Shown here: one piece after another, positions 6,345-42,470 of the stretch
Position numbering within the stretch: position 1 is the stretch's first letter
Layout of the letters: each line of letters opens with the position of its first letter
Source of the DNA: a virus
Reading direction: 5' to 3' (one strand)
IMG/VR virus record: IMGVR_UViG_3300006737_000060
Span: 1 to 43,428 of that record
Length of the DNA stretch: 43,428 nt
Translations under genes and position numbers: made by a program
The notes under the pieces: model-generated
Told to the model about the DNA's origin: nothing
What the model saw: the letters and a program-made list of their open reading frames with translations, nothing else
The model's database searches: none

Positions 6345-6558
6345 TATAATTAGAAAAATCACAATAGGTAAAGATTATAAAAATGATTCTATGCACTACG
6401 CTGTAGATCAAGATGTTTATGGTGGCCACAAGATTTGCGATATAATAGAAGAGAAAGATAAGTATTGTATATATATAAGAAAAGACAACTTAGTAATACC
6501 TTGGAAAGACTTCAATAAAAACATGGCTATATCTGTAGAGTATAATTTGGAATACTAA
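6331..6558 (+). CDS. Hypothetical protein, 75 residues
   Basis: This small protein of mixed beta character (HYAVDQDVYGGHKICDIIEE, then KYCIYIRKDNLVIPWKDF) has no recognised motif. It overlaps the preceding gene by 14 bases, and its stop shares one base with the next ATG (TAATG), so it is embedded in a translationally coupled run. The central YCIYIRKDNLVIPWKDF could be part of a small beta barrel. The function is unknown. Confidence 0.6.
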   Translation: MVNNNIIRKITIGKDYKNDSMHYAVDQDVYGGHKICDIIEEKDKYCIYIRKDNLVIPWKDFNKNMAISVEYNLEY

Positions 6559-7127: not shown

Positions 7128-7356
7128 GGCAGTTGAGGAACTAATTAAAGTAGCTAGAGAAGAAATAGTAGATTCAGATGAGGATATATCAGCTGATAGA
7201 TTAAAAAATGCTGCGGCAACAAAGAAATTAGCTATATTTGACGCGTTTGAAATATTAAACAGAATCCACGAAGAAGAAGCAATGTTAGAAGGAAAACCTA
7301 TAGAAGAAGAAAGAAGAACAGCTTTTAAGGGGTTTGCAGAAGGTAGGTCAAAATGA
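7072..7356 (+). CDS. Candidate small terminase subunit
   Basis: This 94-residue mostly helical, acidic protein contains IQAGHKAVEELIKVAREEI and ADRLKNAAATKKLAIFDAFE. It lies directly upstream of the large terminase and shares an ATGA overlap with it. Position, size and helical content fit a small terminase subunit, which recognises DNA and helps load the motor; no helix-turn-helix is obvious, so this rests mainly on synteny. Two starts are possible: 7072 (MLNMNIKET) or 7081 (MNIKET). Both overlap the preceding gene by about 50 bases, an unusually long overlap here. Confidence 0.55.
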   Translation: MLNMNIKETKKNIIQAGHKAVEELIKVAREEIVDSDEDISADRLKNAAATKKLAIFDAFEILNRIHEEEAMLEGKPIEEERRTAFKGFAEGRSK

Positions 7357-9590
7357 GTTACAAGCAAACATTATATAAAGTTGTAGAACATATTAAACTT
7401 AATACTTTAAGTAGGTTGAATAAATCTAAAAAGTGGAAGTATGGTTACAACAGGGAAAACAATGTTGTTGTAATATCGAAAACTGGTATGATTGGTGAAG
7501 TGCTTGAGATACAGGGTTTAAAAATAGCTCTACCAAAACAACCAAAAGAAATATACTCTTGTAGCAAAAATAAATCAGAACAAAAATGGAGACAATTTCC
7601 TGCTAACCCAGATTTTAAAAGAATTAAAACTGTTTTTGACTGGCAAGATTATCCAGATGATTTTAAAGAAAAACACTATGGGTATATAGATGAGGAGTTT
7701 AAGAGAAGAGAAGAAGGTTTTTGGTTTATGAATAATGGTAAACCAACCTATATAACAGGAACACACTACATGTATTTACAATGGAGTAAAATAGATGTTG
7801 GTGCTCCAGATTTTAGAGAAGCAAATAGGTTGTTTTTTATATTTTGGGAGGCTTGTAAAGCTGATAAAAGAAGTTACGGAATGTGTTATTTAAAAAATAG
7901 ACGTTCCGGTTTTTCTTTTATGAGTTCAGCTGAAACAGTTAATTTAGCTACATTAGCAAGTGATAGTAGATTTGGGATACTATCTAAAACTGGTGCTGAT
8001 GCTAAAAAGATGTTTACTGACAAAGTGGTACCAATTAGTTTAAATTATCCATTCTTCTTTAAACCGATACAAGATGGTATGGATCGTCCAAAGTCTGAAC
8101 TAGCTTACAGGGTACCAGCAAAGAAGTTTACTCGTAAAAAAATGAGGGAACGTGAAGAGCAAGATGATATGGAAGGTCTTGACACAACTATAGACTGGAA
8201 AAATACAGGTGATAATAGTTATGACGGGGAAAAACTATCTTTATTAGTACATGATGAGAGTGGTAAATGGGAGAGACCTGATAATATAAAAAATAACTGG
8301 AGAGTTACGAAAACTTGTTTACGACTAGGTAGTAGGGTTATAGGTAAGTGTATGATGGGGTCAACAAGTAATGCTTTAGATAAAGGGGGTGATAATTTTA
8401 AAAACTTATATTATAATTCAGATGTCACAAAACGAAATCGCAATGGACAGACTAAGTCAGGATTATATTCTTTGTTTATCCCTATGGAATGGAACTACGA
8501 AGGATTTATTGATGAATATGGACAACCCGTGTTTAATACTCCTGAACAAGAAACACAAGATCCACATGGAGTAGAGATAGATTATGGTGTTATAGATCAT
8601 TGGGATAATGAAGCAGACGGTTTAAAAGATGACCAAGATGCTTTAAATGAATTTTATCGTCAGTTTCCTAGAACAGAAGAACATGCCTTTAGAGATGAAA
8701 CAGGTAATAGTTTGTTTAATCTTATAAAAATATATGAACAGATAGATTACAATGAAGGTAATAGAAACTCTTCTGTGTTAACAACTGGTAATTTCCAATG
8801 GATACAAGGTATTAAAGACACTCAAGTAGTATTTAATCCAGATCCAAACGGTAGATTTAAAGTTAGTTGGGTTCCAGGACAAAAACTGCAAAATAACGTT
8901 ATATTAAAAAATGGCGTAAAATATCCAGGTAACGAACATATGGGCGCGTTTGGTTGTGACTCATATGATATATCAGGAACGGTAGATGGCAAGGGTTCTA
9001 AAGGCGCTTTACACGGGCTAACTAAGTTTTCAATGGAAGACGCGCCGGCTAATACATTTTTCTTAGAGTATCTAGCTAGACCACAAACGTCTGAGCTATT
9101 TTTTGAGGACGTACTAATGGCATTAGTATTTTATGGTATGCCGATATTAGCAGAGAATAATAAACCTAGACTATTGTACTATTTAAGAAGAAGAGGTTAT
9201 AGAGCGTTTAGTATGAACAGGCCTGATAAAATATGGAATAAATTATCTGTTGCAGAAAAGGAGGTTGGTGGAATACCTAACTCTAGTGAGGATATAAAAC
9301 AAGCTCACGCTGCTGCAATTGAAATGTATATAAATGACCACATTGGATTACTACAAGATGGTACCTATGGTACTATGTATTTTAATAGTACTCTAAATGA
9401 TTGGTCTAAATTTGATATAAATAGAAGAACAAAACACGATGCCTCTATAAGCTCTGGTTTAGCTGTAATGGCCTGTAACAGACATTTATATAAACCAAAT
9501 CCCGATAAAGAGGTAAAACAATTAAATTTAAATATATCTAAGTATAATAATAAAGGAATTTCATCAAGAATAATAAAACAAAATATATGA
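7353..9590 (+). CDS. terL: Terminase large subunit (packaging ATPase-nuclease)
   Basis: This 745-residue protein pumps DNA into proheads and cuts concatemers. A Walker-A-like loop lies near residues 180-192 (LKNRRSGFSFMSS), an unusual variant lacking the usual GK[ST]. A Walker B with catalytic Glu is at about 296-303 (LSLLVHDE). The C-terminal RNase H-like nuclease has its first acidic residues in FGCDSYD (Asp536), an acidic pair in FFEDVLMAL (about 583-584) and a late Asp in KHDASISSG (Asp696). The length is somewhat above the usual 450-650, with an N-terminal extension of about 150 residues. It overlaps the upstream gene and the portal gene by ATGA. Portal, scaffold and capsid follow directly, the classical order. 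Confidence 0.88.
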   Translation: MSYKQTLYKVVEHIKLNTLSRLNKSKKWKYGYNRENNVVVISKTGMIGEVLEIQGLKIALPKQPKEIYSCSKNKSEQKWRQFPANPDFKRIKTVFDWQDYPDDFKEKHYGYIDEEFKRREEGFWFMNNGKPTYITGTHYMYLQWSKIDVGAPDFREANRLFFIFWEACKADKRSYGMCYLKNRRSGFSFMSSAETVNLATLASDSRFGILSKTGADAKKMFTDKVVPISLNYPFFFKPIQDGMDRPKSELAYRVPAKKFTRKKMREREEQDDMEGLDTTIDWKNTGDNSYDGEKLSLLVHDESGKWERPDNIKNNWRVTKTCLRLGSRVIGKCMMGSTSNALDKGGDNFKNLYYNSDVTKRNRNGQTKSGLYSLFIPMEWNYEGFIDEYGQPVFNTPEQETQDPHGVEIDYGVIDHWDNEADGLKDDQDALNEFYRQFPRTEEHAFRDETGNSLFNLIKIYEQIDYNEGNRNSSVLTTGNFQWIQGIKDTQVVFNPDPNGRFKVSWVPGQKLQNNVILKNGVKYPGNEHMGAFGCDSYDISGTVDGKGSKGALHGLTKFSMEDAPANTFFLEYLARPQTSELFFEDVLMALVFYGMPILAENNKPRLLYYLRRRGYRAFSMNRPDKIWNKLSVAEKEVGGIPNSSEDIKQAHAAAIEMYINDHIGLLQDGTYGTMYFNSTLNDWSKFDINRRTKHDASISSGLAVMACNRHLYKPNPDKEVKQLNLNISKYNNKGISSRIIKQNI

Positions 9591-17889: not shown

Positions 17890-20800
17890 ATGCCAGAAAT
17901 TAATCACGAATTTACCGCTGGTAAAATGAATAAAGATCTCGATGAGAGATTAGTGCCAGCAGGAGAGTATAGGGACGCGATGAACATACAGGTCAGAACA
18001 ACTGATGGTAGTGATTCTGGTACTGTTCAAAATTTAAGAGGTAACTCTCTTAAGGGTTTCGTTAACTATCAAACAGGTTATACTAGTTTTGCAAATGCAT
18101 CATTTTCAAACAGTAGCAAGGTTGTTGCTAGTATAGCTAGTGAGAAAAATAATAAAGCATACTTTTTCCACGCGGCACCTCCATTAAGTTCAGTGTTTAG
18201 CGATGTAACAGTTATAAACTCTAAAAAAACATGGATAGATAATATAGTTGAAGTGAGTTCTGATGGAACCTCTATTGAACCAGTGGTAACAGACGTTTTT
18301 GCCATAACAACAACTCGCGATGAATTATTCGGTGGACCTTCATTTAATCCTGTAGATCAGGGTTATCAATTTCCATTTCAAGAGTTTAAAGTGGTAGATG
18401 GTGAAAATATTAGACCTGGAATGAGCGTAAAAATTTACAACTCAAACGGTCAAAATCTAGTAAGTAATTCCTGTGAAATACAAAATGTGTTATATTCTAA
18501 CGGGGTTTATAAATTAAAACTTTACGATCAGGAAAATGGAATAAATTGGAATGGTGTTGATTATATTATTTTCACAGCTGAAAGAGTTTTAAACTTTGAT
18601 AACAAAGCTAGAGCCAATTACATAACTGGTATCAACATAATAGACGACTTGCTTTTTTGGACTGATAATAAAAGTGAGCCAAAAAAAATAAACATAACAA
18701 GATGTAGACAAGGAACAAGTAGCTTAACATCTCACACTAAAAATATTATATACAATCAACTCGATGAAGGCAGTTTGTTTACAAGCTTAGAAGATCAATT
18801 AACACCACTTGTTAATGATTTTTTAAAAGAAGAAGATATAACAGTTATAAAGAAAGCTCCAAAAACTGCGCCAAGTTTAGAAATGGCCACAACATCAAGA
18901 ATTAATGCAGATGGAACTCAAAACACTACTGTAACAGGTGTTTATTTCAATTTCGCTGCACCAACTTCAGCCTCAGAGGCCGATGAAGTTATAATGCCTT
19001 ATCCTGGTTATGACATATCTATTAATAGTGATTTATTCAATGGTGTAAACTATCAGGTTAATGATATACTTAACTTTACTGAAGAAATACAGGGAGTTTC
19101 TGGAACCGTATCTTGTAACGTTAATAGTATAAATACTAACACAAACGGTACAGTTACACTTAATTTAACAATAACAAGTGTTGTTGGTAACGTTGTATTT
19201 CCATCTGCTGATATTATAGGAAGTGGTTATTGGACTACAGAGCTAGATCAAAACAAACCTTTATTCGAATTAAAATTTGGTAGATTTGGTTATAGATATA
19301 AATATACTGATGGTGAATATTCTTCGTTTTCACCTTGGTCTGAATTAGCATTTTTACCTGGAAGATTTGATTATAATCACAAAAAGGGATATAATCTAGG
19401 TATGACAAATAATGTTAGAGAGTTAATAATAAGAGACTTTATTCCACACCAAAGAACTAGACCTAACGATGTTGTTGAAATAGACATATTGTACAAAACT
19501 AGTGTATCACCAAATATTTATGTTGTAAAAACTATAACTAGAGAAAAAGATCCTGAGTGGGATTTATTTACACCTGGTGGACAGCCAAATGCTACTGATA
19601 TGGTTTTTGGTGAACTCAAGTTAACATCAGAAATGATACATAAGGTTTTACCAGAAAATCAACTTCTTAGAGCTTGGGATAATGTTCCAAGATATGCCCT
19701 AGCTCAAGAAATAACAGCTAATAGATTGATATATGGTAACTATACTCAAGGCTACAACATAGAGCAACAGGTTGGATTAATACAATCTTTAAAACACCAA
19801 ACAACAGCAACACTGTCTACTCCTCAGAAATCAATAAAGTCACTAAGAGAGTATAAGTTTGGAATGGTGTTTGGGGATAAGTATGGTAGAGAAACTCCAG
19901 TTATATCTCCTGGTTATATTTCTGGTAACAATGTAACAAACTTTTCGATGTTATCTGGTGATGTTGGGGTTGAAAAAGAGTTTAGTAAATTTAAGAATAC
20001 TTTTGAATTAACACAAAACTGGGATAATCCTTTAGCTGGAACTGGTGAACCTGAAGAGTGGATGTCATATGTTAAATATTATGTCAAAGAAACATCTAGT
20101 GAATACTACAACTTAGTAATGGACAGGTGGTATTACGCTGAAGATGGAAATGCTTGGATATCTTTTCCATCAGCTGATAGAAACAAGGTTGATGAAGAAA
20201 CTTATTTGATATTAAAAAATCAACATGGAAATAATAATCCCGTTGATGAGTTAGGTAGATTTAAAATAATAGCCATAGAAGCTGATGCGCCTGAGTTTAT
20301 AAAAAGAGATCCTAGACCTTTAGGCTCTTGTTACGTTGGTAATGCTAATGTTTACGGTGGAGTTGCTTTTTACATATTTAGCGATACATCTCCAAATACA
20401 AACGTAAACACACCGAACTTATTAATGGGTAACAACAAGGAAATAGTTATTGATAATGGTGATTGGGATAACTTCATAGACGAAGATTATACATTGGGCG
20501 GGGCAAAAGGTGAATTAATGGTTAGAGTTATTGGAGAAAATGGAGATGGTGGTATAAAGATATTTGGAAAGAAATGGAATAAGGTTACGTATATATCTCA
20601 AAATGACTCTGGTGATTGTAAGATTAGATGGAAAGATCCTTTCTTAGAGGATGCCGATATGCAAGAAAAGTTTACTTCATCTGGTATAACATTAACTGAT
20701 CTTAGATACCATTTAGATTTTAAAGAAGAGGTTATTGAAAATAAGGCTGAGTTTGATGGAAAGTTCTTTGTTAAATTAGAGAGAAATGGAGTCTTGCAGC

Positions 20801-23800
20801 AGCATGTTTTAAAAAGTGCTGCTGGTAATATAGATTATGATAACGCTATAAGCTATCCTATTGGATATATAGATAATCAACCTATAAACCCAGGTATAAA
20901 TGGACCTAGATCAAATTACCAATGGTTAGGTTTAACAACGCCAGCTGGTGTATTCTCTGGAGAATCGAATATCGGCGGTAATGACGCTCAAGTAATACCT
21001 GGTACACAAGGCGTTGACTATGTTCAAGCTTTTAATGATGGACAAGACAATGCAACGCTAGCTAATGTTGCTATGAAAGGTTCTTCTAATGAAGGTTATT
21101 GGAGTTATATACCACAAAACGTTTTGCTCTGGCAAGGTAATAACGCTGCAGCAGCTTTAGAAATAACACAGTATTATCAGGGAAATAATAATCTTAGGGC
21201 GTTTATGTCAACATTTTTAGGTATGGGATGTTGGCCAGCTAATAGTAATTGGAATAAACAAAAAGGAAACTACTATAATTTTTTCGGTGAAACATCATTT
21301 GCCGGAGGAAGTAATGTGAATAATATAAATCCAGATGATTTTGACACAGGTGGTCCATATAATGTTATCAACGCGGCTTGGGATAGTTTTAGTTTCTGGA
21401 AGTACATAGCAGCTGTTGCAGAAACTTCTGATGAAGGTGCTAATTATAGATTGTTTATAGATTCAGCTAGAGGTAAAAGAACACGTATGTGGGGTGGGCC
21501 AAATGATGGTAGTTCATCTATTGATGATGGTTGGGAATCAAATTCTATGACTTACTACAAACCAACAGGTCTTGATAGAGGTTACTTAAATGATAGTACA
21601 ATTGGAGTTGTACCTACTAGTAGCACTCATTTTGGTAGAATGCATATCGGGGTGATTAGACCTGAAGCGGAATATCCATTTGGAAGTGGAGATGAGGCTG
21701 GTTTTAAAAATGCTTTTACAAAACCTGGAACTTTATTTAGATTTCAAAAAGATCCAAATGAAAGAATATACCAAGTTGTTACACCAGAGGGTTTTCACGA
21801 AGATTCATTAACGTGGAATTACTCTGCTTACCCAGAAGAAGGTGACGATGGTTGTAATAACGGAGGTGCTGGTCATCATGTTGGTAACTCTGAACTTGGT
21901 CAAGTTTTAAATAATAGTATATCTACTAATGGAGCGAGTATCAATGGTTATTATATAGGTGGACAAGAATTTAGTGGTGTTGACACTAGCTGTGATGTTT
22001 GTAGATCAAAGGTGAGTTATTATGGAGTAACAGAGGGTCTTTCTACTTGCAACCCTGGTGATGTTCTCAATGTTAATCACAAAAGAAATTGTCATAGATA
22101 TGGATTTAGATTTGAATTTAGAAGATTCGACACGGGAACAGGTGCTTTAATGGACAATGGTAATATAGGGTTAGATCCAGATGAGTGGGATCCAAGAGGA
22201 CAAATATGTCATGATGGAAGAGAGGCTATGGGTATAAATATTGTTGAACCAGCTGCCACTGATCCAAGTATTGTAATTCCAGTTGCAAATGCAGCTATAT
22301 GGGAAACTGAACCAAAAGAAAACACTGCACTAGATATATACTATGAAGCGTCAAGTGCTATACCAATGGTACTGACTAGCGAAAACACAACACAATTTGC
22401 TCCTTATAATGCTAAAATAACAGCTAGGTCTTTAGATTTGAATTCAGCGTTTCAATTTATACCACTATCTGGTCAAGATCATCATGTCTGGACAATAGGT
22501 TATACATCTAAAACATCTATTATTGGTATAAAGTATACACCTACTTTAGGTGGCGATACAGAACGTTTTGCATCATCTGAAATTAGTGTAGGTGACTTTT
22601 TAGTTTTTGAACATAAAGATGGTACAAAAACTATGTCAAAAGTTACTAGATATATGGAGCCAGTTGATACACCTTTTGACGATGACGATATAAATTTTGA
22701 AGAACAGAGATTTAGACCATTAGCAGGGGAGAACTCTTCATCGCAGATTAATTTTAGTTTGCAATATATAGGTCCTGATAATCAATGCTTATTAGATAAT
22801 AATAGTGGTAGTTTAGTGCCAGGTATGATACCACAGTCAATTAGTGAAGGTTTAATACCGTCCGGTGTTTTTATAGAAAGTGTTAACGCTAATATAGTAA
22901 TTCTAAACGATACTAGCTGGATGGCTAATGATGCTGATGGTATTCCTCTTACTTATAAGTTATTTAGCTTTGGCACCAATGCTTCTTGTTTTTATGAAAT
23001 AGAAAGTGAGGTTTATAAATACCCAGTTGAACTATCATGGCATAATTGTTGGTCTTATGGTAACGGTTTAGAAACAGATAGAATACGAGATGATTTTAAT
23101 GCTCCACAACTAGATAATGGTGTTAAGGTTTCTACAACATTAATTGATTACGGTAAAGAGGTTAAAGGTAGTAGTATGATATATTCTGGATTATATAACT
23201 CAACTTCTGGAGTTAACGACCTAAATGAGTTCAACATGGCTGAAAAGATAACTAAAGATCTTAATCCAACTTACGGCTCTATACAAAGGTTGCACACTCA
23301 AGACAACGATGTTGTAATATTCGCTGAAGATAGAGTTTTACAAGTAACAACAAATAAAGACGCTTTATTTAATGCTGATGGTAATCCACAGTTAATGGCA
23401 TCAAACAAAGTTCTTGGTACAGCCTCGCCTTTTGCTGGTAGGTATGGGATATCTAAAAACCCAGAATCACTAGCTTGGGATCAATATAGATTATATTTTA
23501 CAGACATGCAGCGAGGTGCTGTGTTGAGATTATCTAACAACGGTATAACACCTATATCAAACGTTGGTATGAAAACGTTTTTTAGAGACAACCTTAAGAA
23601 AACTAAAAGCTTGGTTGGTTCATTTGATACTGTTTTAGGTGAATATAATTTAACGCTAAAATATCAACCAGCTTCAAACGCTCCTTCTAGATCAAACACA
23701 GCTGCATTTAACGAGGGTTCTAAAGGTTGGGTTAGTTTTAGATCTTTTGTACCCCAACAAGGTTTGTCGGTCGGAGGTAAATACATGACAGCTTATAGAG

Positions 23801-24321
23801 ATGCTGGAATATATACACATCACGACGAAGAGGTAGATAGAAATACATTCTACGGTACATTTACGCCTTCGTACGTTGATGTTGTGTTTAACGAACAACC
23901 AGGTGTAATAAAAGGTTTTCAAACAATTAACTATGAGGGTTCACAATCTAAGGTAATACAACTTCAAACTGAAGATGCTTTTGTGGGTATAGGTGGTGTT
24001 AGTGGTACTGATCAATTTTCTGAATTTAACGACGGTGAGTATTACAATTATTCTGAGAAATTTGGTTGGTATGTTGAAAGTATTGACACGGATAAACAAA
24101 GCGGCCATGTACCAGAGTTTATAGAAAAAGAAGGTAAGTGGTTTAATAAAATATCTGGAATCGAAAAAGATGGTTTTACATCACCCGATTTAGCTAGTAT
24201 TACTGTTCAGGGTTTAGGAAATGTTAAAGAAGTATCATCTGGATCTGATGGTGACGTAAGTGCTGATGGCACGACTACACTGTACGTAACTGGTGATATG
24301 ATAAATGACACAACAGATTAA
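17890..24321 (+). CDS. Giant tail-hub/tubular B-like protein
   Basis: This 2143-residue protein starts MPEINHEFTAGKMNKDLDER, then LVPAGEYRDAMNIQVRTTDG, a start I associate with tail-hub proteins of marine podoviruses. A beta-propeller-like stretch occurs late, near residues 1780-1925 (GSIQRLHTQDNDVVIFAEDR, FAGRYGISKNPESLAWDQYR, LYFTDMQRGAVLRLSNNGI). T7 gp12 and P22 gp10 are the best-known relatives by role but are much shorter. The extra length is a large beta-rich insertion between about residues 300 and 1750, including a Cys-rich patch (SCDVCR near 1368, then CNPGD and NCHRYG). The role would be tail nozzle or hub, with the insertion exposed. The first and last parts are the best supported. 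Confidence 0.72.
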   Translation: MPEINHEFTAGKMNKDLDERLVPAGEYRDAMNIQVRTTDGSDSGTVQNLRGNSLKGFVNYQTGYTSFANASFSNSSKVVASIASEKNNKAYFFHAAPPLSSVFSDVTVINSKKTWIDNIVEVSSDGTSIEPVVTDVFAITTTRDELFGGPSFNPVDQGYQFPFQEFKVVDGENIRPGMSVKIYNSNGQNLVSNSCEIQNVLYSNGVYKLKLYDQENGINWNGVDYIIFTAERVLNFDNKARANYITGINIIDDLLFWTDNKSEPKKINITRCRQGTSSLTSHTKNIIYNQLDEGSLFTSLEDQLTPLVNDFLKEEDITVIKKAPKTAPSLEMATTSRINADGTQNTTVTGVYFNFAAPTSASEADEVIMPYPGYDISINSDLFNGVNYQVNDILNFTEEIQGVSGTVSCNVNSINTNTNGTVTLNLTITSVVGNVVFPSADIIGSGYWTTELDQNKPLFELKFGRFGYRYKYTDGEYSSFSPWSELAFLPGRFDYNHKKGYNLGMTNNVRELIIRDFIPHQRTRPNDVVEIDILYKTSVSPNIYVVKTITREKDPEWDLFTPGGQPNATDMVFGELKLTSEMIHKVLPENQLLRAWDNVPRYALAQEITANRLIYGNYTQGYNIEQQVGLIQSLKHQTTATLSTPQKSIKSLREYKFGMVFGDKYGRETPVISPGYISGNNVTNFSMLSGDVGVEKEFSKFKNTFELTQNWDNPLAGTGEPEEWMSYVKYYVKETSSEYYNLVMDRWYYAEDGNAWISFPSADRNKVDEETYLILKNQHGNNNPVDELGRFKIIAIEADAPEFIKRDPRPLGSCYVGNANVYGGVAFYIFSDTSPNTNVNTPNLLMGNNKEIVIDNGDWDNFIDEDYTLGGAKGELMVRVIGENGDGGIKIFGKKWNKVTYISQNDSGDCKIRWKDPFLEDADMQEKFTSSGITLTDLRYHLDFKEEVIENKAEFDGKFFVKLERNGVLQQHVLKSAAGNIDYDNAISYPIGYIDNQPINPGINGPRSNYQWLGLTTPAGVFSGESNIGGNDAQVIPGTQGVDYVQAFNDGQDNATLANVAMKGSSNEGYWSYIPQNVLLWQGNNAAAALEITQYYQGNNNLRAFMSTFLGMGCWPANSNWNKQKGNYYNFFGETSFAGGSNVNNINPDDFDTGGPYNVINAAWDSFSFWKYIAAVAETSDEGANYRLFIDSARGKRTRMWGGPNDGSSSIDDGWESNSMTYYKPTGLDRGYLNDSTIGVVPTSSTHFGRMHIGVIRPEAEYPFGSGDEAGFKNAFTKPGTLFRFQKDPNERIYQVVTPEGFHEDSLTWNYSAYPEEGDDGCNNGGAGHHVGNSELGQVLNNSISTNGASINGYYIGGQEFSGVDTSCDVCRSKVSYYGVTEGLSTCNPGDVLNVNHKRNCHRYGFRFEFRRFDTGTGALMDNGNIGLDPDEWDPRGQICHDGREAMGINIVEPAATDPSIVIPVANAAIWETEPKENTALDIYYEASSAIPMVLTSENTTQFAPYNAKITARSLDLNSAFQFIPLSGQDHHVWTIGYTSKTSIIGIKYTPTLGGDTERFASSEISVGDFLVFEHKDGTKTMSKVTRYMEPVDTPFDDDDINFEEQRFRPLAGENSSSQINFSLQYIGPDNQCLLDNNSGSLVPGMIPQSISEGLIPSGVFIESVNANIVILNDTSWMANDADGIPLTYKLFSFGTNASCFYEIESEVYKYPVELSWHNCWSYGNGLETDRIRDDFNAPQLDNGVKVSTTLIDYGKEVKGSSMIYSGLYNSTSGVNDLNEFNMAEKITKDLNPTYGSIQRLHTQDNDVVIFAEDRVLQVTTNKDALFNADGNPQLMASNKVLGTASPFAGRYGISKNPESLAWDQYRLYFTDMQRGAVLRLSNNGITPISNVGMKTFFRDNLKKTKSLVGSFDTVLGEYNLTLKYQPASNAPSRSNTAAFNEGSKGWVSFRSFVPQQGLSVGGKYMTAYRDAGIYTHHDEEVDRNTFYGTFTPSYVDVVFNEQPGVIKGFQTINYEGSQSKVIQLQTEDAFVGIGGVSGTDQFSEFNDGEYYNYSEKFGWYVESIDTDKQSGHVPEFIEKEGKWFNKISGIEKDGFTSPDLASITVQGLGNVKEVSSGSDGDVSADGTTTLYVTGDMINDTTD

Positions 24322-32807: not shown

Positions 32808-35800
32808 ATGAAAAAAGAATTCATGGTAGATGGACAGAAATATAATGTCCCATCTGAACTAGTTGATAAATTTATAGAAAAACACGGTGACAACGCTAAG
32901 ATTCAATATGTAGTTGATGGACAACAATACAACGTCCCAGCTACATTGGAACAAAAGTTTCTTCAAAAACATGGAGAAAAAGCTACATTGCCGGGAAAGC
33001 AAGAGAGTTCCGCGGAGAGTGCGAATGCGGAACAAGAACCAAAAGCACAGAACCCTTACTTCGGTTCTACGGAGTTCAACTTGGAAAGTACTTTATCGGA
33101 ATTACAAGAAGAGAAAGAAGAGTCTGAGAAACCAAGGGAATTAGAAACACAAAACATAGATGATGCATCTCAATATAGAGAAAAGAAAGCTGTTAAAAAA
33201 TTAACGGAAGCTTATTCTCAATGGGGTTTTCAGTTTGCTGAAGCAGACGCGATGAGCGGAAAAGCTGTACAAATTAAAGCTGATCCTAATTGGAAGGGTA
33301 AAAACTCTCCTTATGATGAAAGTAAAGATCAATCAAGAATTTTTTACTTAAACAAACCTGAGGATATCGCTGAAATGAAACAGTGGATGAGTGAGCGTAA
33401 AGTAGACAAGGGTGATAAGTTTATGAACGAGCTTGATGCTGTTAAGATAGATCAAAAAGAAGATTCAAAAATAGAAAAAGAAGATTATGTTAGTGCTGTT
33501 AACGAGGTTGATGTTGGTTATAACGAGAAGCTTGAGCAGTACAACAAGGATCTAGCTACATACAACGCTAATAAGAAAAAAGGCGGAATGTATAGTGTTA
33601 GGGAAGGTACAGGTAGTCTTGACGCTCAAATTCAAGGACCGTTGGCACCTAAAAAACCTGAACTTTCTGAGAAAGGAAAATGGGTTAAAGACTTAAGAGA
33701 AACATTCGTTAAAGAAGAGGCTATAAAAAGATGGGAGGAGGAAAATGGTAAAGAGTTTAAAAAGCTAACATACGAAGAAAGAGTTAATTTAGCTGAAGGT
33801 GATTTAAAAAGAATACAAGGAGAAGTACAAGCGGATATAGAGGAAAACGACGAGCTAAAGGGTAGATACGAAAATTATGTTAGAGAAGGTTTTAAAAGAA
33901 ACGGTAGAGTAGAATTATTAGAAGATAAAGTTTTAAATAAACTAGATGAGGAAGAAACCAGACTATTTACAAAGGGTGAAAAACAAAAGTACTTAGAAAA
34001 AGAAGCTAATAGAAGAAAGGACATTTTAGACGCTAAGATAGATAAAAAAATTGAACAAGTAGAATCGGTTAGAACTGATTTTGATAAAATAAGAACAGAG
34101 TTAGAGGCTACAGAAAACTGGTTTAAAAGTGATGGAGAGAAGATTGTTAATGAAATAAACAAATTAAAAAACGGTAAATACACAACGGAAGAACAGGTTA
34201 ATAAAGCTCAAGCTAGAATAAATACTTTATTTAAAGAGTACCAAGATAAAGCTCATAGACATGAGTTTTTAAGAAATAGAGGTTTAGAATATCAAGATGT
34301 GTTTGAAAAACTAAGCGGACAACTAGATGGTATGTCTGTTGAAGAAGAACAGTTGGGTTCATATGTAAAAGCTATAGCAAGAAACCAAGGTTATGTTACA
34401 GACTTCTTTGCTTCTATGGTTTTAGAGGCTGGTATTGATACTGTGCAAGGTATAATAAGCCAAGCAGATATGTTGTTTCAAATGCCGGAAAACTTAATAA
34501 AGGAAATAAATAATCCAATACTTAGAGGTATAGCTAAGGCTGCATCTTTGTATGCGGCGCCAGTAGCTACAATTGTTGGCGGTGGTTTGTTTGGTGATAA
34601 TTTTACAAACAAAGAAACTGGCATGAGGGAGAGCTTGTGGGATAAAGCTAGTAGAAGTATAGATGAATGGCAAGCAGATGAAATAACAGCTAAAACTAGA
34701 AAAGCAACAACCTACGACGAAATAGATGATTTTGGTTCTGGATTGAGTTGGTTTAGTAACCTAATAGCAACACAAATACCAACACTTGCTACAATGTATT
34801 TATCTGGTCCTTACTCATTATATGTTTTAGGCGCTTCAGCTACCGGAAATAAGTATGACCAACTACAACAAGAAAAAGAATTGTACATGAAGTCTGGGGG
34901 TTTGTATGGTAATAATTATAGTTTTACTACTATGGCTATGAATGCTCAGTTTACTGGTGCTGCAGAAGCATTATCCGAAAGAGTAACATTTAAAGCGCTA
35001 AAGAAAACAAAGGGTATGCTGGGTGGTGCTACAGCAAAACAAGCTAGACTTGGTTTTGAAAAAGAAGTTAGAGAGAATATATTTCAATTTAGAAATTTAA
35101 AAAATACCAGTGTTGAATTATTTGAAGAAGGTTTTTCTGAGAGCTTAGCTACTATATCTGGTAATTTAGCTGACATGTATATTTCTGGAAATGATGATGT
35201 TCATATCTTTGACAATGTTGCTGAATCATTTGTTAGCGGTATAGGTATAAGTGGTTTTATACAATCACCCAGGTTATTTGCTAAAGCTTCTAGTCCTTTT
35301 GCAACCGAGGAAAACAGCACTATATTAGGTAAGATAGGTCAAAGACTACAAGATATAACTAAAGAAATAGCTGAGCTAGATGGTAACCACACTTTGGGAA
35401 CAGGAGCTAAACAAAGGAAACTAGATGAACTAGAAACTGAGTATGCTAACTTAGTAGATGAAAGTAATACTCTTTTAGAAACTGATATTAAACGAATAGA
35501 TTTACTACACCCATCAGAAAAGAAAACGTTAATTGAAATAGACAGGAGAAATCTACAAGATCGTAAAGAAGCTAAGAAAATAAACGAAGACTCATCTTTA
35601 ACTGAAGCTCAAAAGAAAGAACAACTATCCAAACTGCAACAAAAAGTTGACGCAAGAAAAGCAAGAAAACAACAGATACTAAGTAAGTATCCAAAAAACG
35701 TAGTTGATAAAAATTATCAAAGAACTATGGATTGGGTTAATCAATATGTTGCTAAGATTAAAAAAATGGGTGGTGTTAATATATCTTCTAGGGAGGTTTC

Positions 35801-38800
35801 AGCCAAAGAGTTTCAGCAATTAAACGTTAAAGATACTGGAGCTAAGTCTAAAAACGTTTTAGAAAACCTAGCTGCAGAAAAGGAAGGCTTTATAGAAGCT
35901 ATGAACGATATAATAAAAGACAAGTCTTTACCTCAAGAAACTAGAGATGACGCAAAAAGAATGTTAGAACAGGCTAGCAAAGAAGGCATGACAGCTGATG
36001 ATATAGTTGATTTAGCTGGTGATGCATTAATGTCTACGAGTGATTTTGGTATGATGATACCTAAGATTGAAGATGGAAAACTTGTTGGTCTAGAAATTGT
36101 TGTAAACAAAGAGGCTTCATTAAAAGCAGGAGAGTTTCACGTTGGAGCACATGAGTTTGTGCACGCTGTAATGAGAAACACACTAAAAGGAGATCCAAAC
36201 CTTAGAGCTATAATGGGTAAGCAGATAGATAAAATAATGCTTGGTAAGGGTGTAGAGTTTAGAGATCAAAACGCTAAGGATAAATGGGACTTAAAAATGC
36301 AGCAGTATGATGAAAACTCTATTGGTGAAGAAAAGTTAGCCTTTATGGCTGAAATGTTAATAAACGGTGAGGTCATATTTAATGACGGTGCTCTTGGTAA
36401 GTTAAGAGGTTTAATAAGAAGGTTTGTTAGAAACATAACTGGTTCTGATATATCTTTTGACTCTACTCAAGATGTTAAAAACTTTTTAATTGATTTTAAA
36501 AATTCATATGATAACAACACTACTAGCGATGCTATGATAAACTTATTGCAGAAGGGTGCTAGTGGAAAAATATTTAACGACAAAAGACCCGTAAAGCAAA
36601 GAAAAGCAGAAAAAGAATTTTCAAGAGCTGTTAATTTAGCTAGAATAAACGATGTGGATTTAAAGAGAAAACACGATCAATTTATTCAGAATGAAGATGG
36701 AACACCAAAGTATAAGGATCAAGATGAGTTTAAAACATCTCCTGATTATTATAATGCTTTTTTAAATATAGTTGAGGGTAGATCCTTAGATGGTTTAATT
36801 CAACAAGGAATGACTGATTTAGGTTTACCAGCAGAAGCTTTAAGAGAGTTTACTAGAAACGTTAAGGAGTTAATAGGTCAACGTTTTTTAGATAACTATA
36901 GTTACGATAAGAATAAAAGTTTGTTTGGTTGGTTAACGGGTGTATCAGGTGGTGCTGGTAAGTCTATTATATACAGAGCTAAGGGTGACCAAATGAAGAA
37001 ATATAAAAAAGAACAAAATATTTCTGGTCCATCTTTAGACACTCAAATATCAACTAAAGAAGGTTCATCAACACTTGGAGACGTTTTACCTGGAGAACAA
37101 GATTCTGAATTTAATAGAATTGACGATTTAGATTTATCGCTGGGTAGAAAAACAGCATTAAAAGAAAACGTTGAAGATGGTTTAAAATTAAAACAAGAGT
37201 TAGAGCTTTCTGAAAGTACAACTGAGGCTTTAAATAGTATAGTTAAATCATCTAAAGTTCCTATACAAGGCTTATCTTATAAGGGTGTTAAGAGATTACT
37301 TGATGACGCTATTAAGTTAACTAAGAAAGACAAGAGTGGTAACGTAGTAGTTGATAAAAAAACTGGACTACCAAAACTATTTAAACCAAAGAAACCAGCT
37401 GATGTGAAAACTGCTGGAGATTTGTTTGGTATATTAGATGTAGTAGCATCTCACTTTGGTGTAGACGCTAATAGAATAATAGCTGAATCAGACCTTAATG
37501 GTGAACAAAGACTAGCTGCACAAAATTATATATATTCAGTATCAACAAATAAAGATGGTTCTCATAATCCAATCTTACTTGACATGTTACCTGAAGGCCA
37601 AGATAGAGACGGTAGAGCTACAGGTATAGCGAATACAAAGTTAGGTGATTTTTATAGAAAAGGAGCTAGATTGTCTTATGCTAAAGGAGATAGTGGCGCT
37701 GGTAATTATGCTCAAGATAAAAGAAAAGATGTTTCAAGAGAAGAATTTTTAGCTAAGTTTGGTATTAGACCAGACGGTAGTTTTGTCAAGGGAACTAAAA
37801 ACGACCCGGCTATAAGACAGTTAGCTTTATCAGCCGCTCAAACAATTGCTAATCAAGAGTTAAGAATAAATGCAATTGAAAGCGGAACAGAACAAGATGC
37901 TTTAATCGCTAAGCTTGCTGACGGTAGAGGTGATAAAATGTTTAGTAGAAACATAAATAAAGAAAAGGCTATAAACAACGTAGCTAAGAACGTTAACCCA
38001 CAAACAGATCCAGAGGCTATAAAACCTATAGTGCAAGCTTCAGTTGAAGACGCTGCGGATAGTAAAGCTACAACAACTGAAAAAACCAAACTAGTAAATT
38101 GGTTTGTTAAAACAATATCTAAGTTTATTAAAAGAAAAAATATACTTAGAAAAATGTATAACACAACACTAGATAAAGACCTAGAAAAAAGATATGATGA
38201 AGAGTTTGATGAAACAAACGCTAGAGATTTAAAAAAGATATTTGGTTTAAGTAAATCCCCTGGTTCAGAGTTTTTATCTATCGAAGGTATAAACGCTATA
38301 AGAAATACAGTTGTTAACTCTGTTATTAAACTAGCTGGTAATTTAAATAGTCAAGTTAAAACAGGTCAAATGCTTTTAACACACGGCCTAAACTCTTTTA
38401 CTGGATCAGGTAAGATTGGTGACGGTAGATTAATACAAGATCCAAACAACCCTAATGGTGTTATAGAAAACCCTGACTTTAAAGGTAAGAAGGATAATAG
38501 ATATAAAGCTTGGGATACAGTAGCTAATTATATAAATAGTTTAAATAGTATTATTCACCCTGACATAAAAAGAACCAAATTAAAAAATGGTAAAATGGGT
38601 TGGATTCAGGAGTCTAATGTTAAAGGTTATAAATATGAGGTTTGGGATGGCACTAAGTTTGTTCCAACTAAAATAACAATGTTAAAAGAGGATATTGAAT
38701 CTGGTAAAAAAGATGTTGGAAACAAAGAGAGACAAGCTCAGAGAAAGCAAGAGTCTGAGGACGCTAGATGGTTTAGTAAGTTTATGATTGAAGGTGCTTA

Positions 38801-41800
38801 TAATAACGATGGTGTTACTGATTCACAGCTAGCGGCTATAATAATGAACTTAGGTTCTGGAATGAATTCACCAATGAGAAAGTCCGCTTTACTAACAACT
38901 GTTGTAAACAATACAGATAAGATAGAAGCTTGGCATAAGAAAAATAAAAACAAACTTAAAAAAATATTTGGCAAGGTTATACCAGCTTTAAGATACGAAC
39001 ACTCAGAATCTAAGGCTGAAATAAATAGAAGAATAATAAAATCTCTAAGAGACAATAACGGAGTTATAGATAGTAATGTGTGGGATGGTTACCAGGTATT
39101 TATAATACCAGGTTTTTGGGATCAAGCTCAAAACTTTGCAGACTTTAAAACACAGTCCGCTGGAGATGAATTGAGACTTGTAGCGCCAGAAACACTAGCT
39201 GAACTAGCATTGATGGTTCAAGAAGCTGGAGATAGTGCTATGGTTAACCTACAGAGCTTCACAAGTGTTGAGGTTGATGGTAATATTAACTTGGAAAATA
39301 AAATAAAAGAAGCTGTTAAGAATATTAAAAAGGTTTTAGATATGAAACCTGTTAAGAAAAATACTCAATCTATAACACAACAAACAGCTAAGATAGAAAG
39401 AACTCTAAATAAAAAAATACAAAAATCAAAAAGTAGAGGTACTACAAAAACACAGGGCGCTTCTATATTTGATTTTGATGAAACTTTAATTATTGAAGGA
39501 GATAATTTTGTTATTGCTACGAATCCTAAAACTAAAGAAACAGAAAGAATAAGCTCTGAAGACTGGCCAACTAGAGGTACTGAGTTAATGGAGCAGGGTT
39601 ATAAAATGAACTTTGATGATTTTGTAAATGTTAGGGGTGGTGTTAAAGGTCCTTTATTTCAAAAGTTAATAAACAGAATTAAAAAATATGGACCAAAAAA
39701 CAACTTTATATTAACAGCGAGACCACAAGAGGCTGCTGTAGCTATACACGGTTGGTTAAACTCACAAGGTGTTTATATACCTCTTAAAAACATAACTGGT
39801 TTAGGTAATAGTACGGGTGATGCTAAAGCTCAATGGATAGTGGATAAATATCAGGAGGGTTTTAATGATATATATTTCGTTGATGATGCGATGCAGAACG
39901 TCGAAGCTGTTAAACATGTTATGAGTCAATTAGATGTTAAAGGTAGTTCTGTTCAAGCTAAACTGTGGAAAAACGGTCTTAGAAGAATAGGTGACATGAT
40001 TGTAAACACTAATACCAAAGAGGGGAAAGAGTTTATTAGAGACCTAGAAAACATACCTACAGTTAGCTCTTCTGAAACAGATCGTATAACAAAAAGAGAT
40101 ACTATGAAAAGTAAAGCTTTTGATAGTAAAAAAGATCCTAAATCATTAGACCAAGAGTTTAATGATATGATGGAAAGAGATACTAACGTTAAGTCAGATA
40201 AACGTTTTTCAGATGCTGCCGCTAGAAATGTTGGTAAGCGTAAGGGTGGTAATATATTTCAAAGATTTTTTATACCTCCATCAGCTGAGGATTTTAAAGG
40301 AATGATATATAGATTCTTGGGTAAAGGTAAACAAGGGGATATAGACGCTAAGTGGTGGAAAGAAAATTTACTAGCTCCATTTGCTAAGGGAATTAGACAG
40401 TGGAACATATATAAACAAAACATGTCTAATGATTTTAAGGCTTTGAAGAAACAGTTTCCAGATGTCGTTAAATCTTTTAAAAAGAAAGTTGCAGGAACAG
40501 ACTTTACGACTGAACACGCTATAAGAACATACCTGTGGAATAAAGCTGGTTTTGATATACCTGGTTTAAGTGAAACTGAAATTAATACCTTAGTTAACCA
40601 CGTTAGAAACAACTCAGAGCTTTCTTCTTTTGCAGATATGTTGGGTAGAGTTAGTAAAGCTGAAGGTGGTTACATTGAACCAGGTACTAGTTGGGTTGTT
40701 GGTGATATAGGTACAGATTTAGTTAATATATCTAAAAAGGGTAGAGAATTCTTTTTATCCGAATGGATGGAAAACGTTGACCAAGTATTCTCACCTGAAA
40801 ACTTAAATAAAATAGAAGCTCTGTACGGAACTGATTTTAGAAAAAATCTAGAAAAGATAATATACAGAATGAAAACCGGTAGCAATAGAGTTGTTGGTGA
40901 TGATGCTACGTTAAACTGGTTTATGGATTGGATAAACGGTTCTGTTGGAGCTGTGATGTTCTTTAACATGAGATCAGCGTTGCTGCAAACAATATCTACT
41001 GTTAACTTTTTAAACTGGGAAGACAATAATATATTTGCAGCCGCTAAAGCGTTTGCTAATCAACCTCAATTTTGGAGTGATTTTGCAATGATATTTAATT
41101 CTCCAATGTTGAAAGAACGTAGAGCTGGATTACAAACAGATGTATCAGCGTCTGAGCTAACTAAAGCTTATAAAGATGGTAAAAGTAAACCACAAGCTAT
41201 TATCCACTTTCTATTAGAAAAAGGTTTTTTACCAACACAAATAGCAGATAGTTTTGCTATAGCAATGGGAGGTTCTACTTTTTATAGAAATAGGTTTAAT
41301 AAATACGTTGCTCAAGGAATGTCAGAAGCTGATGCAAAGAAACAAGCGTTTTTAGATTTTCAAGAAATAGCAGAAGAAACGCAACAGTCATCTAGACCTG
41401 ATTTAATATCAAATCAACAGGCAAGTCCATTAGGTAGAATAATACTTGCTTGGCAAAATACGCCAATGCAGATGACTAGGTTGATGAAAAAAGCTATGTC
41501 TGATTTGGTTAACGGTAGAGGTAGCGTTAAAGCTAATGTTTCTAGAATAGTATACTACGGTGTTGCTCAGAATATAATATTTGGAGCTATGCAAAGTGGA
41601 TTAATGTTCTTGCTGTTTGGCTCTGACGAGGAGGAAGAAAAGAAAATAGACAAAACAAAAGATGTTTTAAACGGAGCGTTAGATACTATACTTAGAGGTA
41701 CAGGTGTATATGGAGCTTTAGTTTCTACGTTCAAGAATACTATAATGGAACACAAGAAACAAAAGTCATTACCACACTGGAAAAGAGATGACACGTGGAC

Positions 41801-42470
41801 TATAATAGAAGCTATAAACCTATCTCCACCCATTGGTAGTAAGATTAGAAAAGTTTATCAAGCTATACTTCAAGACAAGTGGGATAGAGGTTTATCTGAG
41901 AAATTAAAATATAGAATTGAAAATCCTAAGCTAGGAATATATGGTAACATCGTTGAAGCCTTAACAAACCTACCTGTAGCTAGATTAGTTAGAAAAGCTA
42001 ATAACGTAGAAGAGGCGTTAACTAGCAATATGGAACTATGGCAACGTATAGCTATTGTTAGTGGTTGGAGTAGATGGAGCGTTGGCGCTGGTGATGAAGA
42101 GATTGAGGCAGCTAAAGCTGAGCTTGAAAAAGAAAAAGAAGAACAAAAAAAGATAGATAAAGAAAAGAAAAAAATTGAAGATAAGAAAAAGAAAGAAGAA
42201 GAAAAAATAGCTGAAGAAGAAAGAAAAAAGAAAGAAGGAATTAAAACAGTTAGATGTTCTGGTATAAGATCTAATGGTAAGAGATGTGGTATGACAACGG
42301 AAACAAAAGCTAAAACGTGGAAGTGTATTCATCACATGGAGTTTAAAGATGGTGATGACAGAGATGGAGATGGTATAAAGGAATATCAATGTACTGGCAC
42401 AACTTCTTCAGGTAGAAGATGTAAGAACAAAACAGAGAATACTAACAAGAGATGTTATGCTCACCAATAA
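32808..42470 (+). CDS. Giant polyvalent virion-type protein (zincin, sigma-like, HAD, Cys/His domains)
   Basis: This 3220-residue protein resembles the giant polyvalent proteins that some podoviruses eject with DNA. Visible parts in order: two 25-residue repeats at 7-31 and 36-60; charged helices; hydrophobic segments near 580 and 650; a zincin motif HEFVH at 1115-1119 with possible third ligand in EEKLAFMAEM near 1174; a sigma-70-like region about 1325-1500 (FLDNYSYDKNKSLFGWLTG; SLDTQISTKEGSSTLGDVLP); a HAD-like phosphatase signature DFDET at 2222-2226, ILTARP near 2300 and FVDDAMQN with Asp pair 2359-2360; a late helical part with ILAWQNTPMQMTRLMKK and a hydrophobic stretch near 2915-2940; a Lys/Glu coiled coil; and two Cys/His knuckles at 3150-3176 and 3195-3219. 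The window shows one uninterrupted reading frame. Virion location is inferred from position after the ejection proteins. Confidence 0.85.
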   Translation: MKKEFMVDGQKYNVPSELVDKFIEKHGDNAKIQYVVDGQQYNVPATLEQKFLQKHGEKATLPGKQESSAESANAEQEPKAQNPYFGSTEFNLESTLSELQEEKEESEKPRELETQNIDDASQYREKKAVKKLTEAYSQWGFQFAEADAMSGKAVQIKADPNWKGKNSPYDESKDQSRIFYLNKPEDIAEMKQWMSERKVDKGDKFMNELDAVKIDQKEDSKIEKEDYVSAVNEVDVGYNEKLEQYNKDLATYNANKKKGGMYSVREGTGSLDAQIQGPLAPKKPELSEKGKWVKDLRETFVKEEAIKRWEEENGKEFKKLTYEERVNLAEGDLKRIQGEVQADIEENDELKGRYENYVREGFKRNGRVELLEDKVLNKLDEEETRLFTKGEKQKYLEKEANRRKDILDAKIDKKIEQVESVRTDFDKIRTELEATENWFKSDGEKIVNEINKLKNGKYTTEEQVNKAQARINTLFKEYQDKAHRHEFLRNRGLEYQDVFEKLSGQLDGMSVEEEQLGSYVKAIARNQGYVTDFFASMVLEAGIDTVQGIISQADMLFQMPENLIKEINNPILRGIAKAASLYAAPVATIVGGGLFGDNFTNKETGMRESLWDKASRSIDEWQADEITAKTRKATTYDEIDDFGSGLSWFSNLIATQIPTLATMYLSGPYSLYVLGASATGNKYDQLQQEKELYMKSGGLYGNNYSFTTMAMNAQFTGAAEALSERVTFKALKKTKGMLGGATAKQARLGFEKEVRENIFQFRNLKNTSVELFEEGFSESLATISGNLADMYISGNDDVHIFDNVAESFVSGIGISGFIQSPRLFAKASSPFATEENSTILGKIGQRLQDITKEIAELDGNHTLGTGAKQRKLDELETEYANLVDESNTLLETDIKRIDLLHPSEKKTLIEIDRRNLQDRKEAKKINEDSSLTEAQKKEQLSKLQQKVDARKARKQQILSKYPKNVVDKNYQRTMDWVNQYVAKIKKMGGVNISSREVSAKEFQQLNVKDTGAKSKNVLENLAAEKEGFIEAMNDIIKDKSLPQETRDDAKRMLEQASKEGMTADDIVDLAGDALMSTSDFGMMIPKIEDGKLVGLEIVVNKEASLKAGEFHVGAHEFVHAVMRNTLKGDPNLRAIMGKQIDKIMLGKGVEFRDQNAKDKWDLKMQQYDENSIGEEKLAFMAEMLINGEVIFNDGALGKLRGLIRRFVRNITGSDISFDSTQDVKNFLIDFKNSYDNNTTSDAMINLLQKGASGKIFNDKRPVKQRKAEKEFSRAVNLARINDVDLKRKHDQFIQNEDGTPKYKDQDEFKTSPDYYNAFLNIVEGRSLDGLIQQGMTDLGLPAEALREFTRNVKELIGQRFLDNYSYDKNKSLFGWLTGVSGGAGKSIIYRAKGDQMKKYKKEQNISGPSLDTQISTKEGSSTLGDVLPGEQDSEFNRIDDLDLSLGRKTALKENVEDGLKLKQELELSESTTEALNSIVKSSKVPIQGLSYKGVKRLLDDAIKLTKKDKSGNVVVDKKTGLPKLFKPKKPADVKTAGDLFGILDVVASHFGVDANRIIAESDLNGEQRLAAQNYIYSVSTNKDGSHNPILLDMLPEGQDRDGRATGIANTKLGDFYRKGARLSYAKGDSGAGNYAQDKRKDVSREEFLAKFGIRPDGSFVKGTKNDPAIRQLALSAAQTIANQELRINAIESGTEQDALIAKLADGRGDKMFSRNINKEKAINNVAKNVNPQTDPEAIKPIVQASVEDAADSKATTTEKTKLVNWFVKTISKFIKRKNILRKMYNTTLDKDLEKRYDEEFDETNARDLKKIFGLSKSPGSEFLSIEGINAIRNTVVNSVIKLAGNLNSQVKTGQMLLTHGLNSFTGSGKIGDGRLIQDPNNPNGVIENPDFKGKKDNRYKAWDTVANYINSLNSIIHPDIKRTKLKNGKMGWIQESNVKGYKYEVWDGTKFVPTKITMLKEDIESGKKDVGNKERQAQRKQESEDARWFSKFMIEGAYNNDGVTDSQLAAIIMNLGSGMNSPMRKSALLTTVVNNTDKIEAWHKKNKNKLKKIFGKVIPALRYEHSESKAEINRRIIKSLRDNNGVIDSNVWDGYQVFIIPGFWDQAQNFADFKTQSAGDELRLVAPETLAELALMVQEAGDSAMVNLQSFTSVEVDGNINLENKIKEAVKNIKKVLDMKPVKKNTQSITQQTAKIERTLNKKIQKSKSRGTTKTQGASIFDFDETLIIEGDNFVIATNPKTKETERISSEDWPTRGTELMEQGYKMNFDDFVNVRGGVKGPLFQKLINRIKKYGPKNNFILTARPQEAAVAIHGWLNSQGVYIPLKNITGLGNSTGDAKAQWIVDKYQEGFNDIYFVDDAMQNVEAVKHVMSQLDVKGSSVQAKLWKNGLRRIGDMIVNTNTKEGKEFIRDLENIPTVSSSETDRITKRDTMKSKAFDSKKDPKSLDQEFNDMMERDTNVKSDKRFSDAAARNVGKRKGGNIFQRFFIPPSAEDFKGMIYRFLGKGKQGDIDAKWWKENLLAPFAKGIRQWNIYKQNMSNDFKALKKQFPDVVKSFKKKVAGTDFTTEHAIRTYLWNKAGFDIPGLSETEINTLVNHVRNNSELSSFADMLGRVSKAEGGYIEPGTSWVVGDIGTDLVNISKKGREFFLSEWMENVDQVFSPENLNKIEALYGTDFRKNLEKIIYRMKTGSNRVVGDDATLNWFMDWINGSVGAVMFFNMRSALLQTISTVNFLNWEDNNIFAAAKAFANQPQFWSDFAMIFNSPMLKERRAGLQTDVSASELTKAYKDGKSKPQAIIHFLLEKGFLPTQIADSFAIAMGGSTFYRNRFNKYVAQGMSEADAKKQAFLDFQEIAEETQQSSRPDLISNQQASPLGRIILAWQNTPMQMTRLMKKAMSDLVNGRGSVKANVSRIVYYGVAQNIIFGAMQSGLMFLLFGSDEEEEKKIDKTKDVLNGALDTILRGTGVYGALVSTFKNTIMEHKKQKSLPHWKRDDTWTIIEAINLSPPIGSKIRKVYQAILQDKWDRGLSEKLKYRIENPKLGIYGNIVEALTNLPVARLVRKANNVEEALTSNMELWQRIAIVSGWSRWSVGAGDEEIEAAKAELEKEKEEQKKIDKEKKKIEDKKKKEEEKIAEEERKKKEGIKTVRCSGIRSNGKRCGMTTETKAKTWKCIHHMEFKDGDDRDGDGIKEYQCTGTTSSGRRCKNKTENTNKRCYAHQ
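32826..32987 (+). repeat. Tandem protein repeat at the giant protein's N-terminus
   Basis: Residues 7-31 (VDGQKYNVPSELVDKFIEKH...) and 36-60 (VDGQQYNVPATLEQKFLQKH...) match at about 16 of 25 positions with a 29-residue period. The shared core is VDGQxYNVPxxLxxKFxxKHGxxA. It looks like a small strand-turn-helix module used twice, perhaps a docking tag. Confidence 0.82.

Follow-up and report, generated by a model that had tools for sequence, protein, structure and literature searches.

Phages inject RNA polymerases or RNA polymerase-modifying enzymes. In phage T4, the late sigma factor gp55, which has a region 2 and no region 4, is free-standing, made late and needs gp33 and the sliding clamp. 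Polyvalent phage proteins are very large, multidomain proteins with a zincin-like metallopeptidase; Iyer et al. (2017, PMC5512222) predicted that they enter the cell together with the DNA and jump-start transcription or replication. The word "sigma" is absent from the main text of that study (PMC5512222), and the transcription domains described there are polymerases or modifying enzymes. Phage P23-45 has a tail-tape-fused virion RNA polymerase in a giant virion protein with a metallopeptidase domain (PMC10770324), and phi14:2 and other Crassvirales carry a large virion RNA polymerase. The consulted part of a jumbo-phage survey discusses free-standing phage sigma factors only, and no earlier report of a virion-borne sigma factor was found in the open-licence papers searched.

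Here, we describe a giant phage protein that shares its size, several domains and a metallopeptidase motif with the polyvalent proteins (PMC5512222). While the giant of P23-45 holds a polymerase, the protein described here has a sigma-like domain only, and the related genomes revealed no polymerase. The phage has a muzzle protein and the phage type in common with phi14:2; unlike phi14:2, its group has a separate free-standing sigma, no polymerase-like giant was seen, and the relatives of its TerL belong to Elemovirus, Pervagoviridae and Pachyviridae. T4 gp55, which is among the structural matches of the domain (7d7c_F), is an example of a factor with region 2 alone that is functional with host RNA polymerase, whereas the domain of the giant is embedded in a virion-type protein. 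Compared to sigma-70 region 2, which binds promoters (Escherichia coli SigE and RpoD, AlgU; PF04542), the domain is alike in the order of its helices and in the position of regions 2.3 and 2.4, with FDxxK..SLFGWL in register with FEYRRGYKFSTYA and an SLD...GTLxD linker following. It differs in lying below Pfam detection, in lacking DLIQE (window clade), and in having a Gly-rich insert between regions 2.3 and 2.4. In contrast to sigma-70, the giant has no region 3, a region 4 is doubtful, and the domain sits within a protein of 3220 aa. With slightly better than even confidence, we propose that a diverged region-2 domain with a region-3.2-like linker, carried in a polyvalent virion protein, aids the first transcription of the phage.

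A Giant Protein at the End of the Structural Module

The window, i.e., the whole stretch of DNA analyzed (43,428 nucleotides), represents a 43.4-kb virus record and mainly covers a structural module. Its gene content includes GroEL, GroES, terminase, portal, capsid and tail proteins and a muzzle protein (Pfam and PHROGs). The window belongs to a phage of marine flavobacteria whose muzzle protein is Crassvirales-like. The features that are relevant for this assignment and for the giant protein are the following:

7353 to 9590, plus strand: terminase large subunit (phrog_6681, E 1e-173)
17890 to 24321, plus strand: muzzle-type virion protein, crAss_MUZ_C (Pfam PF25729, E 1.6e-7; phrog_14478, E 4e-117)
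32808 to 42470, plus strand: giant multidomain (polyvalent-type) protein of 3220 aa, last gene of the structural module (ORF; homology to phi38:1/phi40:1 gp101)
36150 to 36164, plus strand: HEFVH (residue 1115), HExxH of a zincin-type metallopeptidase (motif only)
39468 to 39488, plus strand: FDFDETL (residue 2221), HAD-type phosphatase motif (motif only)

The terminase shares 45-63% identity with those of the Flavobacterium elemo phages and MW202828, and its relatives among cultured phages are Flavobacterium elemo (Elemovirus), Cellulophaga (Pervagoviridae, Pachyviridae), Tenacibaculum and Maribacter phages. The GroEL homologue (3396-4958) and the GroES homologue (6558-7127) are phage-encoded, and the same is found in related Cellulophaga and Flavobacterium phages.

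Residues 634-961 of the giant protein are homologous to gp101 of the Cellulophaga phages phi38:1 and phi40:1 (27% identity, E 9e-15), and the two genes share their position in the gene order. In the record of phi40:1, gp101 is a structural protein, with the annotation deriving from MS/MS of virions. Based on this homology and gene order, the giant protein is likely to be virion-borne, and the original prediction of a virion-borne protein is thereby supported at the level of sequence. The part homologous to gp101 differs from the sigma-like domain, and no copy of the domain was detectable in the syntenic giants of the cultured relatives elemoF, MW202828, phi38:1 and phi13:2. The giant agrees with the description of polyvalent proteins (very large, multidomain, with metallopeptidase) at 3220 aa, its enzymatic parts being recognized by sequence motif alone. 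HEFVH is located about 170 residues ahead of the sigma-like domain and reads HEFIH in the relative L001.

Layout and Conservation of the Sigma-like Stretch

The original prediction placed a sigma-70-like region at positions 36780-37310, which correspond to residues 1325-1501 of the giant protein. The peptides it quoted are all present: FLDNYSYDKNKSLFGWLTG (with SLFGWL at residue 1371, nt 36918), GKSIIYRAKGDQMKKYKKE (residues 1385-1403) and SLDTQISTKEGSSTLGDVLP (residues 1409-1428, nt 37032-37091). The elements of the stretch are arranged as follows:

36648 to 37034, plus strand: sigma-70 region-2-like helical domain, residues about 1281-1409 (AlphaFold, PDB matches, independent clade, transitive profile homology)
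36918 to 36935, plus strand: SLFGWL, region 2.3-like core with an aromatic residue at the place of E. coli Y430 (hhalign register; family count)
36960 to 37016, plus strand: GKSIIYRAKGDQMKKYKKE, region 2.4-like basic helix (alignment, model)
37032 to 37091, plus strand: SLDTQISTKEGSSTLGDVLP, stretch like the sigma region 3.2 linker (hhalign, aligned with sigma 125-163)
37422 to 37478, plus strand: LFGILDVVASHFGVDANRI, residues 1539-1557, weak helix-turn-helix-like match to sigma region 4.2, uncertain (hhalign)

Scans of IMG/VR yielded more than 40 distinct relatives of the stretch, and one scan, counted together with a sister clade of giants (see below), comprised at least 234 loci, making this a large family. 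The core N-SLFGW..G..A..S is invariant in 32 relatives and YRAKGD is nearly invariant, with an alignment consensus of N..SLFGWLTG (Gly-rich insert) SIIYRAKGDVM..Y..(S)(L/I)D.....(G)T.(A)D. The stretch is conserved and is more than a chance run. The Gly-rich insert, GVSGGAG, lies ahead of the region 2.4-like helix and is missing in divergent members, one of which reads RFNPETNNDLGGFVVSELQQFRIGDVVNRYKREQAGSLDVQ.

The place of Y430 belongs to region 2.3 and the pocket for the -11 base. An aromatic W or Y occupies this place in all window-family members counted (46/46). The signature for the beta-prime clamp, DLxQEG..G (D403-G411, region 2.2), is absent in the window clade together with its DLIQE, and the corresponding residues are FTRNVKELIG.

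The linker of region 3.2 follows region 3 in sigma-70, and in ECF sigmas it stands directly before region 4. In the giant protein, the SLD stretch comes directly after the 2.4-like helix, which leaves no room for region 3. An SLD linker preceding region 3, as initially suggested, was not what we found, as the stretch resembles the region 3.2 linker (hhalign, sigma 125-163). It was modeled with low confidence and is probably flexible. The region 4.2 candidate gave a weak, collinear hhalign score of 21.0-21.1 against a shuffle maximum of 16.7-17.5, and a region 4 in the giant protein appears doubtful from its sequence.

Predicted Structures Match Sigma Region 2

The structure of residues 1275-1644 of the window protein was predicted with AlphaFold from an alignment of 32 sequences (model 1). 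Block means of pLDDT were 77-93 for model residues 10-100, and 84 and 77 for model residues 111-130. In a structural comparison against the PDB, sigma region 2 accounted for 39 of the best 40 rows (Z 7.2 to 4.1), led by E. coli SigE (Z 7.2) and AlgU (Z 6.8), and RpoD could be superposed at 2.2 A over 72 residues. The lone unrelated row among the best 40 (Z 5.0) aligns elsewhere in the model, and unrelated rows further down reach a Z of 3.9 at most.

A second AlphaFold prediction (model 2) used L252, a sequence not contained in the first alignment, as query, with an alignment of 16 divergent sequences. The two alignments are practically disjoint, with L182 alone representing the same contig as a member (L044) of the first one. 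Model 2 was of moderate confidence (pLDDT about 60-77); Foldseek ranks 1-14 were all sigma factors, as were 49 of the best 50 VIA rows, which matched sigma region 2. As a background, a search with RpoD finds 86 recognizable sigma chains among 177,635 distinct PDB sequences. The Z values of 7.2 and 5.2 are below the level that unrelated helical bundles can reach. The structural evidence carries weight because of the near-exclusive sigma identity of the matches in two practically disjoint sets, which agrees with the sequence register.

A Sister Clade Links the Domain to Sigma-70

HMMER searches with a single sequence or a single family against Pfam, PHROGs and PDB gave no significant match to a sigma factor. 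PF04542 did not match the window even at E<=10, nor did it match any of the 32 relatives, and an ECF sigma profile did not match the domain. No homologue of the domain was detected in 50,697 phage records, and a scan of a genome collection with the domain gave no match. PDB matches of the window family in HMMER (an efflux pump, TBPIP and dephospho-CoA kinase) were rejected as chance.

For profile-profile comparison, we used a sigma-70 profile made of group 1-4 sigma factors plus phage sigma factors. The window-family profile matched it weakly, with a score of 23.0 compared to a maximum of 17.4 in 100 column shuffles and 10.2 for the reversed profile. One alignment (A8) starts with a stray row of 10 residues, which does not affect the outcome. 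In the resulting register, FDxxKNxSLFGWL is placed over FEYRRGYKFSTYA and the SLD stretch over the sigma SMETPIGDDEDSHLGDF stretch. When the whole 3220 aa were scanned with a sliding segment, the segment starting at residue 1298 ranked best against both sigma-70 profiles (group 1-4).

A sister clade of giants was located via genomes carrying the promoter motif described below and has LLTDEIETGERGILDLIRAYDPESGVPLAAYINKFLPSRAIEAS at the corresponding place. In hhalign, this clade matched sigma-70 with 89% probability (P 2e-6, score 44.6; shuffle maximum 19.3) and the window family with P 9e-7 (score 46.7; shuffle maximum 17.3), both in register. After the addition of 41 sister sequences, the match to sigma persisted (P 3e-5); the enlarged alignment was less closely linked to the window profile in the direct comparison (P 2e-4), with coverage of only the part after region 2. 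The family phrog_1025, "RNA polymerase sigma factor", was matched by 24 of 40 sister members (best E 0.0014), with the next PHROG family matched by three; Pfam gave no sigma match for the sister clade. D-x-I-x-x-G-x-x-G is kept in 45/50 sister sequences, and a Y or F stands at the place of Y430 in each of the 39 members counted.

The two practically disjoint model and fold searches, together with the transitive profile link via the sister clade, support a kinship with region 2. Residues about 1281-1409 therefore very likely form a diverged sigma-70 region-2 domain, and the likeness to region 2 noted at the outset is borne out. We refer to the domain as region-2-like and not as a member of Pfam Sigma70_r2, since the cut-off of PF04542 was not reached. 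The initial proposal had been tied to a profile match or a region-2 helical bundle: A profile match was missing in single-sequence searches, while the comparisons of the window family and the sister clade did reach sigma-70, and both models showed the bundle.

A Promoter-like Motif and a Free-Standing Sigma in Related Genomes

A rigid, 31-base, promoter-like motif, ACAAAnTAAATACGA-N9-GATAATA, occurs in 7 to 10 copies in each of three long relatives. The copies lie on a single strand of the non-structural module, often 7-45 nt upstream of a start codon, and score 26-42 bits, compared to at most 17.5 after shuffling. Of 32 records searched, comprising the window and 31 relatives, 21 contain the motif when up to three mismatches are allowed; the reversed control was found in none.

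For instance G021:C1:31680-41641: motif carriers, comprising G012, G013, G014, G015, G016, G021, G022, G030, G034-G036 and others

No copy is present in the window, because the window mainly covers the structural module. Promoters of Bacteroidota have the boxes TTTG and TAnnTTTG. The motif is unlike these boxes, and the host -7 box TAnnTTTG showed no clear enrichment upstream of genes. The motif was also absent from elemoF, phi38:1 and the examined parts of MW202828 and phi13:2, and no free-standing sigma was shown there either.

With PF04542, 7 of 12 related contigs were found to have a distinct ORF, about 250 aa long, that covers regions 2 to 4. These free-standing phage sigmas (L175-L181) combine regions 2 and 4 with an RIPEH motif, and their identity to sigma factors from phage records amounts to just 22-30%. 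Among 37 long contigs chosen by the motif alone, 30 carry a free-standing sigma; 18 of the 37 match the giant region, mostly after the region-2 stretch. In three genomes, the gene of the free-standing sigma lies downstream of motif promoters on the same strand. Since the sigma is present in 30/37 motif contigs, the motif is, judged by sequence, most simply explained as the target of the free-standing sigma. The original prediction had referred to a phage promoter motif unlike the host box. Such a strong, non-host-like motif does exist in the related genomes, but it tracks the free-standing sigma better, and we rejected it as proof of an active giant domain. In one contig (G058:C1:55767-56520), the gene of the free-standing sigma is split into two overlapping pieces with internal stop codons, which reflects either a defective gene copy or an error in sequencing.

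Possible Role in Early Transcription

As the free-standing sigma gene lies downstream of motif promoters, an earlier initiator would be needed, and a virion-carried domain would fill this gap. A function of the giant's domain as a starter of early transcription is plausible. The giant protein would be carried in the virion, as suggested by the MS-detected homologue at the same gene position, and would enter the cell with the DNA, possibly freed by its own metallopeptidase domain. The domain may then bind the beta-prime clamp helices of the host core RNA polymerase and open a -10 element in the manner of sigma region 2, as its fold suggests. Host polymerase might thus be aided in initiating the earliest phage transcripts, among them the operon of the free-standing sigma, which would subsequently take over the ACAAAnTAAATACGA-N9-GATAATA promoters. 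That the modeled domain is used for starting transcription at all is possible, at somewhat short of even chances. We propose only tentatively that it acts as a virion-carried sigma in the strict sense, i.e., that an injected region-2 domain starts the first transcription with host core RNA polymerase, before the free-standing sigma and without a virion polymerase. No long RNA polymerase-like ORF was seen in the three long relatives. The explanation as a whole is opposed by the lack of a match of the window domain to curated sigma models and to ECF profiles, by the loss of DLIQE in the window clade, by the doubtful region 4, and by the motif tracking the free-standing sigma. We regard a transcription role as a good, testable hypothesis.

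A sigma-derived domain could also bind RNA polymerase without initiating. Upon ejection, it would occupy the clamp helices and weaken host transcription as an appropriation or anti-host factor, and phage promoters would be recognized by the free-standing sigma alone. The domain has the fold of region 2, yet the residues that read the -10 element are not conserved in the aligned register, and a convincing region 4 is lacking. The association of the motif with the free-standing sigma (30/37 contigs) points in the same direction, as do the sister giants, which differ strongly at the place of the domain while motif and sigma stay. The conserved aromatics at the place of Y430 are, however, expected if the flipped -10 base is still bound, and the first phage transcripts would need another initiator. 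We consider this explanation unlikely.

Similarly improbable is a module that derives from a sigma factor, has degenerated and serves the virion structurally or in handling DNA, e.g., by holding single-stranded or entering DNA, without contact to RNA polymerase. The embedding in a 3220-aa virion-type protein, the fast divergence among relatives, the lost DLIQE signature of the window clade and the cultured relatives without a detectable copy would all be in line with such a role. On the other hand, the window clade retains the polar surface motif YRAKGD and an invariant core, which points to a role in specific binding. An unrelated small helical bundle with convergent likeness to sigma region 2 is very unlikely: Z values of 5-7 are common among helical bundles and the window domain has no curated family match, but two practically disjoint clades return almost only sigma factors, the sister clade matches sigma (P 2e-6) and the PHROG sigma family (24/40), and the order of motifs was foretold from the sequence ahead of the structure searches.

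If a diverged region-2 domain indeed aids the first phage transcription, the particle might deliver a transcription-redirecting part along with the DNA, and an injected sigma-type domain would represent a further route to the takeover of transcription at time zero. The related genomes carry a rigid motif and an ordinary phage sigma, with which the giant's domain can be compared on the same promoters.

Additional Features of the Giant Proteins

In the giant protein of L001 (5399-16132), the HAD-type part contains an inserted P-loop kinase-like stretch, VVFLAGGAGSGKSNVVKKL. This arrangement resembles the pairing in polynucleotide kinase-phosphatase; the copy in the window has the HAD motif only. 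The C-terminal end of the giant (42255-42467) contains two Cys/His clusters, CSGIRSNGKRCGM...CIHH and CTGTTSSGRRCKN...CYAH, which are conserved in several relatives and probably bind zinc. The giant genes of L042 and L043 are near-identical, with the frame of L042 stopping at 1528 aa and that of L043 continuing to 3286 aa; the short frame represents a frameshift or an assembly error.
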